From contig NZ_FOXL01000006.1 in the NCBI RefSeq assembly GCF_900115705.1, positions 62,001-126,000 of the forward strand: DNA of 64,000 nt, given 5' to 3'. Of the stretch, positions 3,056-19,014 are shown in pieces. Below the pieces are notes generated by a model. It had not been told where the DNA came from. It did no database searches and worked only from the letters and a program-made list of their open reading frames with translations. The DNA comes from Frateuria terrea (GTDB lineage: Bacteria; Pseudomonadota; Gammaproteobacteria; Xanthomonadales; Rhodanobacteraceae). Each line of letters opens with the position of its first letter. The first letter of the stretch is position 1. The translations under genes were made by a program, and so were the position numbers.

Positions 3056-3112
3056 CAGCCTTTGTCAGTGGCGCTGCCTCAAGCTTGTACCTCCCTCCCC
3101 GCCCCTCCCGAA

Positions 3113-4009
3113 ATGAAAAAGATCGACTACGCCGTCCTGCTCTCGCTGGGCGCCCTGTGGGGCGGCTCATTCCTGTTCATGCGCATGGGCGCGGGCGCCT
3201 TCGGTGCGCTGCCGCTGGCTGGCCTGCGCGCGATCGGCGCGGCGCTGTGCTTCCTGCCCCTGCTGGCTTCGCGCAAGCGGCTGGCCGAATGGCGCGCGCA
3301 CTGGTGGCCGATCGCCGTGGTCGGGCTGACCAATTCGGCGCTGCCGTTCCTGTTGTTCACCTTCGCCACACGCAGCCTGCCGGCGGGGCTGGCCTCGATC
3401 ATCGACGGCATGACGCCCATGTTCGCCGCGCTGATCGGCTGGTTGTGGTTGGGCCAGCGACTGGACATCTGGCGCGGCGCCGGACTCGCCGCCGGTTTTG
3501 CCGGCATCGTCTGGCTGGCCGAGGGCAGCCTGGCGCTGGGATCGGGTGCCGGCCTCGCGCTGCTCGCCTGCGTGGCCGCCACCGTGCTGTACGGTTATGC
3601 GGTGCATTACACGCACCTGCGCCTGGCAGACGTGACGCCGCTGGTGGTGACCGTCGGCAGCCACATGGTCGCCGCGCTGCTGCTGCTGCCGACGACGCTG
3701 CTGGCCTGGCCGGCCAAGGCGCCGCCGCTGCAGGCGTGGCTGGCCGCGGCCGGACTGGCCGTGCTGTGCACCGCGCTCGCCTATGTGCTGTTCTTCTGGG
3801 TGCTCGCACGGGTCGGTGCGGTGCGGATCATGGTGATTCCCTACCTGATCCCGGCCTTCGGCGTGCTGTGGGGCGCGCTACTGCTCCATGAGCCGGTGAC
3901 CGGCCGCATGCTTGGCGGCTGCGCGGTGATCCTGCTGGGCACGGCGCTTACCACCGGGCTGGTCCGCCCACGGCGCGCCGCACCGGCGCTGGCCGTCGGA
4001 AAGACATAA
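3113..4009 (+). CDS. EamA/DMT-family transporter
   Basis: Inner-membrane permease of the drug/metabolite transporter superfamily. About ten hydrophobic segments form two tandem EamA repeats over 298 residues, the family's usual size. The first repeat opens with a typical LGALWGGSFLFMR motif. The substrate cannot be told from sequence; relatives move amino acids, nucleosides or metabolites. The start MKKIDYAV at 3113 is preferred to an upstream TTG at 3062, which would add 17 residues unlike a membrane N-terminus. Confidence 0.85.
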   Translation: MKKIDYAVLLSLGALWGGSFLFMRMGAGAFGALPLAGLRAIGAALCFLPLLASRKRLAEWRAHWWPIAVVGLTNSALPFLLFTFATRSLPAGLASIIDGMTPMFAALIGWLWLGQRLDIWRGAGLAAGFAGIVWLAEGSLALGSGAGLALLACVAATVLYGYAVHYTHLRLADVTPLVVTVGSHMVAALLLLPTTLLAWPAKAPPLQAWLAAAGLAVLCTALAYVLFFWVLARVGAVRIMVIPYLIPAFGVLWGALLLHEPVTGRMLGGCAVILLGTALTTGLVRPRRAAPALAVGKT

Positions 4010-15748: not shown

Positions 15749-18475
15749 ATGGCACAGCTCATCCTGATCGACGGCTCCTCCTACCTCTACCGCGCCTTCC
15801 ATGCGCTGCCGCCGCTGACCAACGCGCGCGGCGAGCCCACCGGCGCACTGTTCGGCGTGGTCAACATGCTGCGCGCCACGTTGAAGGCGCAGCCGGAGTA
15901 CCTGGCCTTCGTCTGCGACGCGCCCGGGCGCACCTTCCGCGACGACATCTACACCGAATACAAGGCCAACCGCCCGCCGATGCCCGACGACCTGCGCGCG
16001 CAGGTCGAACCGATGATGGCTATCGTCGGCGCGCTGGGCTTCCCGATCCTGTGCATCCCCGGCGTCGAGGCCGACGACGTGATCGGCACGCTGGCCCGTG
16101 CAGCCGCGGCGCAAGGCATCGACGTGACGATCTCCACCGGCGACAAGGACCTGGCCCAGCTGGTCGACCCGCGGGTGACGCTGGTCAACACCATGACCAA
16201 CACCACGCTGGACATCGCCGGGGTGACCGAGAAGTTCGGCGTACCACCGGAGCGCATCGTCGACTTCCTCTCCCTCACCGGCGACAGCATCGACAACGTG
16301 CCGGGCGTGACCAAGTGCGGCCCCAAGACGGCCGCCAAGTGGCTGGCCGAATACGGCTCGCTCGATGGCGTGATCGCCAACGCGGACAAGGTCGGCGGCA
16401 AGATCGGCGAGTACCTGCGCGAGGCGCTGCCCACGCTGCCGCTTTCGCGCGAGCTGGTGACCATCCGCACCGACGTGGAGCTGGAACACGGCCCCACCGA
16501 CCTCAGCCTGCGCGATCGCGACACCGCCACGCTGCGCGAGCTGTTCACCCGCTACGAGTTCAAGGCGGCGCTGAAGGAACTGGACGCCGAGACCCTCGGC
16601 GAACCGGGCCCCGCGCCCGTCGCCGCGGTCGCTCCCGCGCCGGTCACACCCGCGCCGGCCGCCGCACGGGCGGGCGAGTACGAGCTGGTCACCACGCCGG
16701 AGCGCTTCGAGCACTGGCTGGCACAACTGCGCAAGGCGCCGCTGATCGCCTTCGACACCGAGACCAGCGACATCGACGCCATGCGCGCCGAACTGATCGG
16801 CCTGTCCTTCGCTGTCGAATCCGGCAGGGCCTGCTACATCCCGGTCGCGCACGACTACCCCGGCGCGCCCTGGCAGCTGGATCGCGACCAGGTGCTGCAT
16901 GCGCTCAAGCCGCTGTTCGAGGACCCAGGCATCGCCAAGCTCGGCCAGCACGCCAAGTACGACATCAACGTGCTGTCGCACTACGGTATCGGCGTACAGG
17001 GCCTCAAGCACGATTCCATGCTCGCCTCCTACGTCTGGAACGCCACCGCCACTCGCCACGACATGGACTCGCTGGCCAGCCGCTACCTCGGTTACCAGAC
17101 CATCAAGTACGAGGACGTGGCGGGCAAGGGCGCCAGACAGATCCCGTTCTCGCAGGTGGACCTGGACACCGCCTGCCGCTATGCCGCCGAGGATGCCGAC
17201 ATCACCCTGCGCCTGCACGAAGCGCTGCAGCCGATGCTCGAGACCGTCCCTGCGCTCAAGCGCGTGTACGAAGAGATCGAAGTGCCGCTGATACCGATCC
17301 TCGCCGGCATGGAGCGCAAGGGCGTGCTGATCGACGTCGGCGAATTGCGCAGGCAGAGCCAGGAGCTGGGCAAGCGCATGCTCGAACTGCAGCAGCAGGC
17401 CTACGCGCACGCCGGGCGCGACTTCAGCCTCGACTCGCCCAAGCAGCTGCAGACGATCCTGTTCGACGAGCTGGGCCTGGCGGCCAAGCTGAAGACGCCC
17501 AAGGGCCAGCCCTCGACCAACGAAGAAGCGCTGGAGGCGATTGCCGACGACCACGCGCTGCCGCGGCTGATCCTCGACTACCGCGGGCTGGCCAAGCTGC
17601 GCTCCACCTACACGGACAAGCTGGCGCAGATGGTCAATCCGCGCACCGGCCGCGTGCACACCTGCTACCACCAGGCGTCGGTGGCGACCGGGCGCATTTC
17701 CTCGTCGGACCCGAACCTGCAGAACATCCCGGTGCGCACCGACGAGGGCCGGCGCATCCGCGCCGCCTTCGTCGCGCCGCCCGGCTGGGTGGTGATGGCC
17801 GCCGACTACTCGCAGATCGAGCTGCGCATCATGGCGCACCTGTCCGGCGACGAGGCGCTGCTGCGCGCGTTCAAGAGCGGCGGCGACGTGCACCGCGCCA
17901 CCGCCGCCGAAGTGTTCGGCGTGGCGCCGGAGGAGATCACGCTCAACCAGCGCCGCGCGGCCAAGGCGATCAACTTCGGCCTGATGTACGGCATGAGCGC
18001 GTTCGGCCTGGCCCGGCAACTGGGCATCGATCGCGGGGAAGCGAGCGACTACATGGCGCGCTACTTCTCGCGCTTCGCCGGCGTGCGCGCCTTCATGGAC
18101 GCCACCCGCGAGCAGGCGCACCGCGACGGCTACGTCGAAACCATCTTCGGCCGCCGGCTGTACCTGGAGAACCTCAAGGCGCGCAACCAGGCGCTGCGCG
18201 CTGGCGCCGAGCGTGCCGCGGTCAACGCGCCGATGCAGGGCAGCGCGGCGGACATCATCAAGCGCGCGATGATCGCGATGGGCTCCTACCTGTGCCAACG
18301 CACCGACGCGCACATGCTGATGCAGGTGCACGACGAACTGGTGTTCGAGGTGCAGGAGGACGCGGTGGATGCCCTGCGCCAGGCGGTGACCGAGCGGATG
18401 GCCGGCGCCGCGGAGCTCGCCGTGCCGCTGGTGGTGGACGTGGGCGTCGGGGCGAACTGGGAGCAGGCGCACTAG
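15749..18475 (+). CDS. polA: DNA polymerase I
   Basis: Repair and Okazaki-fragment polymerase of 908 residues. The 5'-nuclease domain is at the N-terminus (LILIDGSSYLYRAFHALPP; GVEADDVIGTLA). The 3'-5' exonuclease domain keeps its catalytic motifs (FDTETSD, and YAAEDADITLRL), so proofreading should be active. The polymerase domain has DYSQIELRIMAHLSGD, the O-helix RRAAKAINFGLMYGMS and VHDELVFEV. An Ala/Pro-rich linker joins nuclease and exonuclease. An sRNA candidate follows it, as is known for polA in several gammaproteobacteria. Confidence 0.99.
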   Translation: MAQLILIDGSSYLYRAFHALPPLTNARGEPTGALFGVVNMLRATLKAQPEYLAFVCDAPGRTFRDDIYTEYKANRPPMPDDLRAQVEPMMAIVGALGFPILCIPGVEADDVIGTLARAAAAQGIDVTISTGDKDLAQLVDPRVTLVNTMTNTTLDIAGVTEKFGVPPERIVDFLSLTGDSIDNVPGVTKCGPKTAAKWLAEYGSLDGVIANADKVGGKIGEYLREALPTLPLSRELVTIRTDVELEHGPTDLSLRDRDTATLRELFTRYEFKAALKELDAETLGEPGPAPVAAVAPAPVTPAPAAARAGEYELVTTPERFEHWLAQLRKAPLIAFDTETSDIDAMRAELIGLSFAVESGRACYIPVAHDYPGAPWQLDRDQVLHALKPLFEDPGIAKLGQHAKYDINVLSHYGIGVQGLKHDSMLASYVWNATATRHDMDSLASRYLGYQTIKYEDVAGKGARQIPFSQVDLDTACRYAAEDADITLRLHEALQPMLETVPALKRVYEEIEVPLIPILAGMERKGVLIDVGELRRQSQELGKRMLELQQQAYAHAGRDFSLDSPKQLQTILFDELGLAAKLKTPKGQPSTNEEALEAIADDHALPRLILDYRGLAKLRSTYTDKLAQMVNPRTGRVHTCYHQASVATGRISSSDPNLQNIPVRTDEGRRIRAAFVAPPGWVVMAADYSQIELRIMAHLSGDEALLRAFKSGGDVHRATAAEVFGVAPEEITLNQRRAAKAINFGLMYGMSAFGLARQLGIDRGEASDYMARYFSRFAGVRAFMDATREQAHRDGYVETIFGRRLYLENLKARNQALRAGAERAAVNAPMQGSAADIIKRAMIAMGSYLCQRTDAHMLMQVHDELVFEVQEDAVDALRQAVTERMAGAAELAVPLVVDVGVGANWEQAH

Positions 18476-18619
18476 TTCTCGCCTTCGCGGGCGAAAATTT
18501 TCGTTACGCGCAAGCGGCAAGTTCGTGCGGATGAACGAACCCTGACCTGTTCCGGTGGTCTCGAACGCCTCCCTTGAAACTTTCCTCCCTCATCCGCATC
18601 CAAGGTTCCGGATGCACGC

Positions 18620-18738
18620 AACGGCATCCACGACCCGTCCACCTCCCTGAGCGGGTCACCAAGGATGCGAACCTCTCCCCTGGGCTTCGCATCCACCCCG
18701 GCCCCGAAGGTTCCCCCTAGCCTTCGGGGCTTTTTTTC
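18620..18738 (+). ncRNA. sX13-like small RNA with C-rich hairpin loops
   Basis: Three successive hairpins: GACCCG/CGGGTC (18632-18637 with 18652-18657), a perfect GGATGCGAA/TTCGCATCC (18663-18671 with 18686-18694), and the terminator hairpin at 18702-18729. Each loop carries a C-rich run (CCTCCC, CCTCTCCCC, TCCCCC). Xanthomonas sX13, also next to polA, is known to have three hairpins with C-rich loops that pair with G-rich mRNA sites; Spot 42 and ErsA occupy the same locus elsewhere. The 5' end is a guess; further CCTCCC motifs at 18568-18592 and another GCATCC/GGATGC hairpin at 18596-18615 could belong to a longer transcript. Confidence 0.72.
18702..18738 (+). terminator. Intrinsic terminator of the sX13-like RNA (and polA)
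   Basis: Nine-base perfect stem CCCCGAAGG/CCTTCGGGG (18702-18710 with 18721-18729), a C-rich 10-base loop, then seven T residues (18731-18737). Confidence 0.9.
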
Positions 18739-18795: not shown

Positions 18796-19014
18796 ATGCG
18801 TGCAGGACTCATCGTCGTCGGCATCATCCTGTTGATCGCCGGTATCTGGGTAACCCTGGGCAACGGCAGCTACAAGAAGACCGATACCGTGGCCCAGCTT
18901 GGCCCGGCCAAGATCGAAGCCACCCACGACAAGGCGGTGCCGCAATGGATCGGCATCGCCGGCATCGTGGTCGGCGGCCTGCTGACCATTGGCGGGTTCG
19001 TCAAGAAAAGTTGA
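18796..19014 (+). CDS. Small two-helix membrane protein, DUF3185-like
   Basis: Seventy-two residues with two transmembrane helices (about 4-22 and 48-66) and a polar middle segment. It resembles DUF3185 small membrane proteins, whose function is unknown. A GAGGAG ribosome-binding sequence lies just before the ATG. It lies between the polA-linked sRNA and uvrD. Confidence 0.75.
   Translation: MRAGLIVVGIILLIAGIWVTLGNGSYKKTDTVAQLGPAKIEATHDKAVPQWIGIAGIVVGGLLTIGGFVKKS

Follow-up and report, generated by a model that had tools for sequence, protein, structure and literature searches.

Which RNA, if any, is encoded downstream of polA in Frateuria (Rhodanobacteraceae), where does it begin, and what would it do? 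An original prediction, made from the letters of a 64,000-nt stretch of Frateuria terrea DNA (the window), had placed an sX13-like small RNA with C-rich loops at 18568-18738, after polA. In the reading preferred here, which is held with high confidence, the locus is a gene for a trans-acting small regulatory RNA of approximately 128 nt, a homologue of sX13 that would block G-rich ribosome sites. The observations behind this reading comprise structure, covariation, loop conservation, locus, promoter-like elements and homology to sX13. The features concerned, in window coordinates, are as follows.

15749-18475, + strand: polA (DNA polymerase I, 908 aa), the conserved upstream neighbour of the RNA gene.
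18532-18546, + strand: direct repeat TGAAC-N6-TGAC, a candidate activator site, which begins 78 nt ahead of the predicted 5' end of the RNA.
18578-18582, + strand: -35-like AACTT of a putative sigma-E-type promoter (GAAACTTT), from the upstream profile of 48 relatives.
18599-18603, + strand: -10-like TCCAA, separated by 16 nt from AACTT and by 6 nt from hairpin 0; the family consensus is TCTAA.
18610-18629, + strand: hairpin 0, GGATGC-ACGCAACG-GCATCC, the predicted 5' end of the primary transcript; the apex GCAACG is nearly invariant and the arms covary.
18632-18657, + strand: hairpin 1, loop CACCTCCCTGA (anti-Shine-Dalgarno like), with CCTCCC at 18642-18647; from folding and covariation.
18663-18694, + strand: hairpin 2, loop CCTCTCCCC at 18672-18680, loop core TCCCC; from folding.
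18700-18737, + strand: hairpin 3, loop TTCCCCCT, with CCCCC at 18713-18717 and a U7 tail; intrinsic terminator.
18796-19014, + strand: small membrane protein gene (72 aa), from its translation; downstream of and outside the RNA gene.

Hairpin 0 starts 134 nt past the polA stop. Beyond the 72-aa gene lies a helicase gene, presumably of uvrD/rep type. PolA of the window shares 93% identity with that of Frateuria sp. STR12, and its next-best matches are from Rhodanobacteraceae.

The three predicted hairpins with C-rich loops, the last of them a terminator, are present at 18632-18737. The minimum free energy of the interval is -70 kcal/mol; shuffled sequences averaged -46.4 kcal/mol (z -6.3), and none of 200 folded as well. 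Covariation was counted in alignment A1, which comprised 46 of the 48 own-family rows; L019 and L022, which have five hairpins, were omitted, and one overlapping anchor was removed from L121 before the counts. Overall, 94.2% of cells were paired and 21 of 27 pairs carried double changes, so the stem covariation whose absence in relatives had been named as grounds for refutation was found. None of 500 shuffles reached as high a value, and slid controls were at most 50.2% paired. Hairpin 0 was paired in 98.1% of cells, with six of eight pairs changed on both sides; the corresponding values were 81.3% and all seven pairs for hairpin 1, and 98.9% and eight of 12 pairs for hairpin 3. The arms of hairpin 2 are not aligned by MAFFT; it was left out of the counted consensus structure, and for this reason its covariation is taken from individual folds only. 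Among 66 non-redundant folds of relatives, hairpin 0 was present in 65, and 64 combined it with three or more C-loop hairpins. Identity is 96-97% in the loops and averages 58-60% in the stems of hairpins 1 and 2 (hairpin 1, loop 0.96 versus stem 0.60; hairpin 2, loop core TCCCC 0.97 versus flanking stem region 0.58).

Two groups of relatives (L019/L065 and L022/L078/L103) have five hairpins rather than four. The addition is a C-loop hairpin, which in L022 resembles a repeat of hairpin 2. Across the window, CCTCCC is rarer than expected (25 copies versus 44 in shuffles), with three copies within 80 nt at the RNA locus. Three overlapping or near copies also occur at 3090-3109, immediately before an ATG at 3113.

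GCATCC/GGATGC does recur as predicted, five times in 18596-18694. The alternative pairings proposed from this recurrence were not kept: in one relative (L004) hairpin 2 has become GGATAC/GTATCC and hairpin 0 is still GGATGC/GCATCC, and cross-pairing of hairpins 0 and 2 was rejected. A longer version had also been proposed, formed from an upstream pair of CCTCCC motifs and a GCATCC/GGATGC hairpin. These stretches fall in the promoter, and the pairing shows no covariation. Pairing of 18596-18601 with 18610-18615 was observed in six of 48 relatives against a permuted mean of 8.3, counting Watson-Crick pairs only, at least five of six pairs and a permitted shift of one; when G-U pairs and shifts were allowed, 33 of 48 paired against a permuted mean of 36.5. 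The arms of hairpin 0 (18610-18615 with 18624-18629) paired in all 48 relatives, against a permuted mean of 24.9; none of 300 permutations reached this value. The RNA proper is approximately 18610-18737 and not 18568-18738, because the upstream stretches are a -35/-10 region without covariation and the pairing of hairpin 0 covaries. A transcript of approximately 128 nt, starting at hairpin 0, is predicted.

The pattern AAC[TC]T-N13-19-TCNNA was found upstream in 33 of 48 relatives; most of the 15 in which the strict pattern was missing had TCTAT or ACTAA. In own-family upstream regions, AACTT-N16-TCTAA-like boxes end approximately 6 nt before hairpin 0. The rpoE promoter of the same genome is GTGAACTTGCGCCCCGGCGGCTTGTCTGA (AACTT-N16-TCTGA), which the AACTT-N16-TCCAA of the RNA gene resembles at the level of consensus. 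As rpoE itself carries this element, a sigma-E-type promoter would be the natural reading for the RNA gene. Of 30 rpoE loci, 27 could be parsed, and the promoter pattern was present in 17 of these. A different promoter (TTCACGAACCATC..ATATAG) prevails among the 18 sequences that come from other families of the order.

Further upstream, the direct repeat TGAAY-N6-TRAM is present in 42 of 47 own-family regions (L009, with 40 nt of upstream sequence only, was omitted), placed 65-68 or 76-78 nt ahead of hairpin 0, and in 11 of the 18 other-family sequences, at 77-79 nt. Its frequency in mononucleotide shuffles was 0.1-0.3%. The two repeat positions differ by one helical turn. The spacing of the repeat suggests a candidate activator of the OmpR/PhoB type. 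PhoP was considered as a name for this activator; no paper among those searched was found to give TGAAT-N6-TGAAT for Xanthomonas.

The Rfam covariance search that had been proposed as a check aligned the sX13 model (RF02232) over its full length (positions 1-115 of 115, three stem-loops plus terminator; E 2.8e-6), with a score of 40.1 bits, under the curated cut-off of 50. No Rfam family reached its gathering score in the window. The position downstream of polA is that of sX13. Loops 2 and 3 are CCCC and CCCCC and loop 1 is CCUCCC, which departs from the 4C/4C/5C set of sX13. The available text of PMC3771888 describes sX13 as restricted to Xanthomonadaceae; the present genome belongs to Rhodanobacteraceae. 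The description "sX13-like" is thus borne out by the full-length alignment and the polA locus, and is qualified by the score, the first loop and the family. On these three grounds the RNA is best described, from its sequence, as an sX13 homologue beyond the curated family. RF02232 matched 107 of 250 order genomes at E <= 0.01, in several families, and passed its cut-off in 56; one of 14 control genomes had a match, below the cut-off, and the match in the Frateuria genome is also sub-threshold.

A model (R1) was built from 46 Rhodanobacteraceae sequences; it contains no promoter. R1 matched 146 of 147 own-family genomes, training rows among them. When loci were recovered by RNA sequence alone with the anchor pattern, polA lay upstream in 54 of 55, the exception being at a contig edge. 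Conversely, the anchor pattern was present in 71 of 80 loci fetched through PolA, and R1 matched eight more (one clipped by a contig end), giving 79 of 80, with L075 as the exception. Several individual arrangements differ. In a Dokdonella locus (L097) the RNA gene follows polA in the reverse orientation, and in a Luteibacter locus (L079) it lies approximately 2.9 kb after polA. In one genome (G502, L386) polA is followed by two inverted copies, each of which has a separate sigma-E-type promoter. In family f5 of the order (L218, L219), a four-hairpin C-loop RNA occurs in a non-polA neighbourhood, next to what is presumably a hemF-like gene. Given these inverted and detached copies, synteny with polA is not absolute.

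The proposed mode of action is transferred from sX13, for which it was shown experimentally. In that work, the 4C/4C/5C loops recognise G-rich motifs close to start codons and do not need Hfq; GFP fusions of targets were repressed through the loops, and loop changes impaired control (PMC3771888). In Frateuria, RNA polymerase with a sigma-E-type factor would begin at approximately 18610 under envelope or general stress, probably with the help of an activator bound to the direct repeat upstream. Hairpin 0 would cap and protect the RNA. Hairpins 1-3 would each present a C-rich loop resembling the anti-Shine-Dalgarno tail of 16S rRNA; these three loops would pair with Shine-Dalgarno or G-run sites near the start codons of mRNAs and so block ribosome binding, and hairpin 3 would double as transcription terminator. 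Loop 1 (CCACCTCCCTGA) and the 16S 3' end of the same genome (GGATCACCTCCTT) have CACCTCC in common, which makes blocking of Shine-Dalgarno or G-rich sites the most likely mechanism. The suggestion that the C-rich loops are of anti-Shine-Dalgarno type also agrees with loops that stay fixed while stems vary, and the RNA is a probable anti-Shine-Dalgarno small RNA.

Putative targets were taken from ribosome sites with G runs. Frateuria hfq has GAGGGGG and pilT has AAGGGGAA at this site, and both genes are plausible candidates. The matches are weak evidence, because many ribosome sites in GC-rich genomes are G-rich. For hfq, 30 loci were fetched and 29 parsed; GGGG lay in the last 25 nt ahead of the start in 19 of the parsed ones (18 of 22 own-family, one of seven others). 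The sole rate for comparison comes from Xanthomonas, in which 5.37% of genes are reported to have 4G at -8 to -15 (PMC3771888, in part).

Three other explanations were weighed. The interval might be a terminator region or 3'-UTR element of polA, which halts polA transcription and protects the mRNA end without acting in trans. The interval shares the strand of polA, lies 134 nt past its stop and closes with a strong terminator, as such an element would. The element would not be expected to carry promoter-like elements of its own at a fixed distance, to keep its loops while its stems vary, or to occur in inverted or detached copies (L097, L079, L386 and, beside the hemF-like gene, L218/L219), and sX13 is an experimentally studied trans regulator; we consider this explanation very unlikely. 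That the RNA is instead a sponge for an RsmA/CsrA-type protein or for Hfq, rather than a base-pairing RNA, appears most improbable. Several similar hairpins with fixed loops would suit a sponge, but the loops hold C runs and no GGA, which is the CsrA motif. A reduction of hfq expression by sX13 in Xanthomonas is reported (PMC3771888, in part) and would also fit; against it, the sX13 loops work through complementary G motifs, without Hfq.

The remaining explanation concerns the 5' end. Position 1 of the Rfam sX13 model aligns to 18620, in the loop of hairpin 0, and the model has 115 positions, the length published for sX13 (115 nt; PMC3771888, available text). A start at 18620 would make hairpin 0 a DNA operator and not part of the RNA. 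This is unlikely, though less so than the other two explanations: the GCAACG spacer is fixed and the arms covary, the reverse of what palindromic operators typically show; 18610 lies 6 nt past the end of the -10-like box, as is usual for a start site; and four-hairpin loci elsewhere in the class retain the arms of hairpin 0 with other loop letters. Since the Rfam model begins at the position aligned to 18620, the published 115-nt sX13 may be a processed form or have another start site. The reading retained is that of a trans-acting sX13 homologue beginning at hairpin 0.

The distribution of such RNAs was followed beyond the order. R1 was searched against 321 genomes of the class. At E <= 0.001 it matched 38, and 34 of these belong to other orders. 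Twenty-six such loci were inspected: in 17, polA lies on the same strand no more than 1.5 kb upstream, and most of the loci folded into four hairpins. Rfam gathering scores on 20 of these loci gave one match, to anti-hemB in L278, directly after polA and above the RF02837 cut-off. PolA was found in 302 of the 321 genomes at E <= 1e-100. Regions downstream of PolA, chosen through PolA against bias, were taken for the best 80 of approximately 155 listed rows. A fixed rule (a terminator with a C-rich loop plus another C-loop hairpin) selected 24 of these best 80 on the polA strand and three of the 80 on the other; when a sigma-E-type promoter was also required, 16 and two remained. R1 at E <= 0.01 matched 31 of the same best 80 regions, 28 on the polA strand and three opposite, and gave one match in 84 non-polA control loci (298 kb). 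The sigma-E-type promoter was at its expected place in 20 of 32 R1 matches versus 15 of 1479 control windows; as R1 contains no promoter, this is independent support.

At E <= 0.01, the Rfam families matching 20 selected loci (19 regions plus a true ErsA) were only anti-hemB, sX13, Pseudomon-1 and one CcsR1. The anti-hemB and sX13 models overlap on one interval in L335 and L340, and the anti-hemB and ErsA models do so in L385 and L349. Matches of all three models at such loci suggest one polA-linked family, of which the Frateuria RNA is possibly one branch. The ErsA link is the weakest part of this reading. Against a single family, many matches are weak, and the similarity could in part be convergence on C-rich loops and a terminator. 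In the R1 search of the phylum, 13 of 398 genomes matched; the two matches outside the class had neither the architecture nor polA, and nothing there was convincing. We regard as evenly balanced the wider proposition that a single ancestral gene of gammaproteobacteria, fixed next to polA, gave rise in different lineages to sX13, anti-hemB, probably ErsA and many unlisted RNAs; its RNA would be driven by sigma-E and fold into four hairpins, with a conserved 5' hairpin and C-rich loops modelled on the 16S anti-Shine-Dalgarno tail. The polA locus would then have housed an envelope-stress translation brake since ancient times; Xanthomonadaceae would have lost the sigma-E box, enterobacteria would carry Spot 42 in its place, and the sX13 mapped in Xanthomonas would be shortened at the 5' end relative to a longer primary RNA.

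Other C-loop RNAs were seen in the course of these searches. Two genomes of one genus (G432 and G539; for example L271, L281 and L299) have three R1 matches each within approximately 1 kb; in G432, an RF01719 match on a further interval between them suggests four tandem copies near polA. A second, different C-loop small RNA gene was found away from polA in other Rhodanobacteraceae (L205, L206, L208-L211, L217, L253-L258). It has a promoter-like stretch (TTGAACTC..CACTAAGC) and two CCTCCCCTGG loops, had DNA matches in 11 of 37 relatives and in none of six Frateuria genomes, and matched no Rfam family at gathering score in 12 loci. In two Xanthomonadaceae loci (L400, L401), a C-loop hairpin and a C-loop terminator form a possible 3'-UTR anti-Shine-Dalgarno RNA; the gene ending just before them is presumably phasin-like.

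A resemblance among polA small RNAs is already in print, as Schmidtke et al. noted that polA loci of other bacteria carry small RNAs and asked whether their action is alike (PMC3771888, in part). Our literature search, beyond which most subscription journals lay, found no paper treating both ErsA and sX13, none on sX13 in own-family genera, and none on the shared promoter, hairpin 0 or the bridging loci. The 5' hairpin and the putative sigma-E-type promoter of the sX13 homologue appear to be new here. If the wider proposition is true, three RNAs catalogued apart, one per bacterial group, become one system with a common locus, promoter logic and loop code. Three questions could then be put to the test: the reason for placing a stress RNA next to polA, the way in which a mimic of the anti-Shine-Dalgarno sequence is directed to particular mRNAs and not to others, and the origin of action with Hfq (ErsA, ncS04) and without it (sX13). 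R1 also annotates nearly all Rhodanobacteraceae genomes, where the current sX13 model mostly stays under its own cut-off.

Among known systems, the original prediction had rightly named Spot 42 and ErsA as occupants of the same locus. Spot 42 is not known to have a set of C-loops, and no Rfam match to it was found in the window. In E. coli it lies in the polA neighbourhood, depends on Hfq and regulates carbon metabolism; alpha-r7 of Alphaproteobacteria (RF02342), also near polA, has three stem-loops with C-rich apices (both PMC3771888, available text). The alpha-r7 model matched the window weakly (20.5 bits, cut-off 60). Streptomyces Scr3202 and other weak Rfam rows were discarded, as they look like shared C-rich or terminator composition.

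ErsA may be more than an analogy. In the portions of PMC7565897 and PMC8575079 available, ErsA of Pseudomonas is a 132-nt RNA from the polA-engB intergenic region, strictly dependent on sigma-22; it requires Hfq, and its predicted pairing with anr is through a U-rich single-stranded region. The Frateuria RNA has the same polA locus and, at consensus level only, a sigma-E-type promoter; its score with the ErsA model (Pseudomon-1, RF01719) was 13.9 bits against a cut-off of 50. A true ErsA member (L298) has polA upstream and a promoter of similar form (GAACTT..GTCATA); its genome was not listed in the R1 search of the class. Anti-hemB, or ncS04, of Burkholderia resembles the Frateuria RNA in the loop of hairpin 1 (CUCCUCCCUGAGCGGG). 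Its model (RF02837), which lacks hairpin 0 and most of hairpin 2, scored 24.1 bits on the window, below the cut-off of 49.5. ncS04 is described as binding Hfq (PMC5688073, in part), whereas sX13 functions without it.

The closest likeness is to sX13 itself, which also lies at polA and has three C-loop hairpins, the last of them a terminator; an upstream repeat of the same type is found at a corresponding position. The first positions of sX13 align inside hairpin 0, and the published RNA lacks the 5' half of that hairpin. The promoter differs, TTCACGAACCATC..ATATAG for sX13 against the sigma-E-like form here, and loop 1 of the Frateuria RNA would be a closer anti-Shine-Dalgarno mimic than the sX13 loop.
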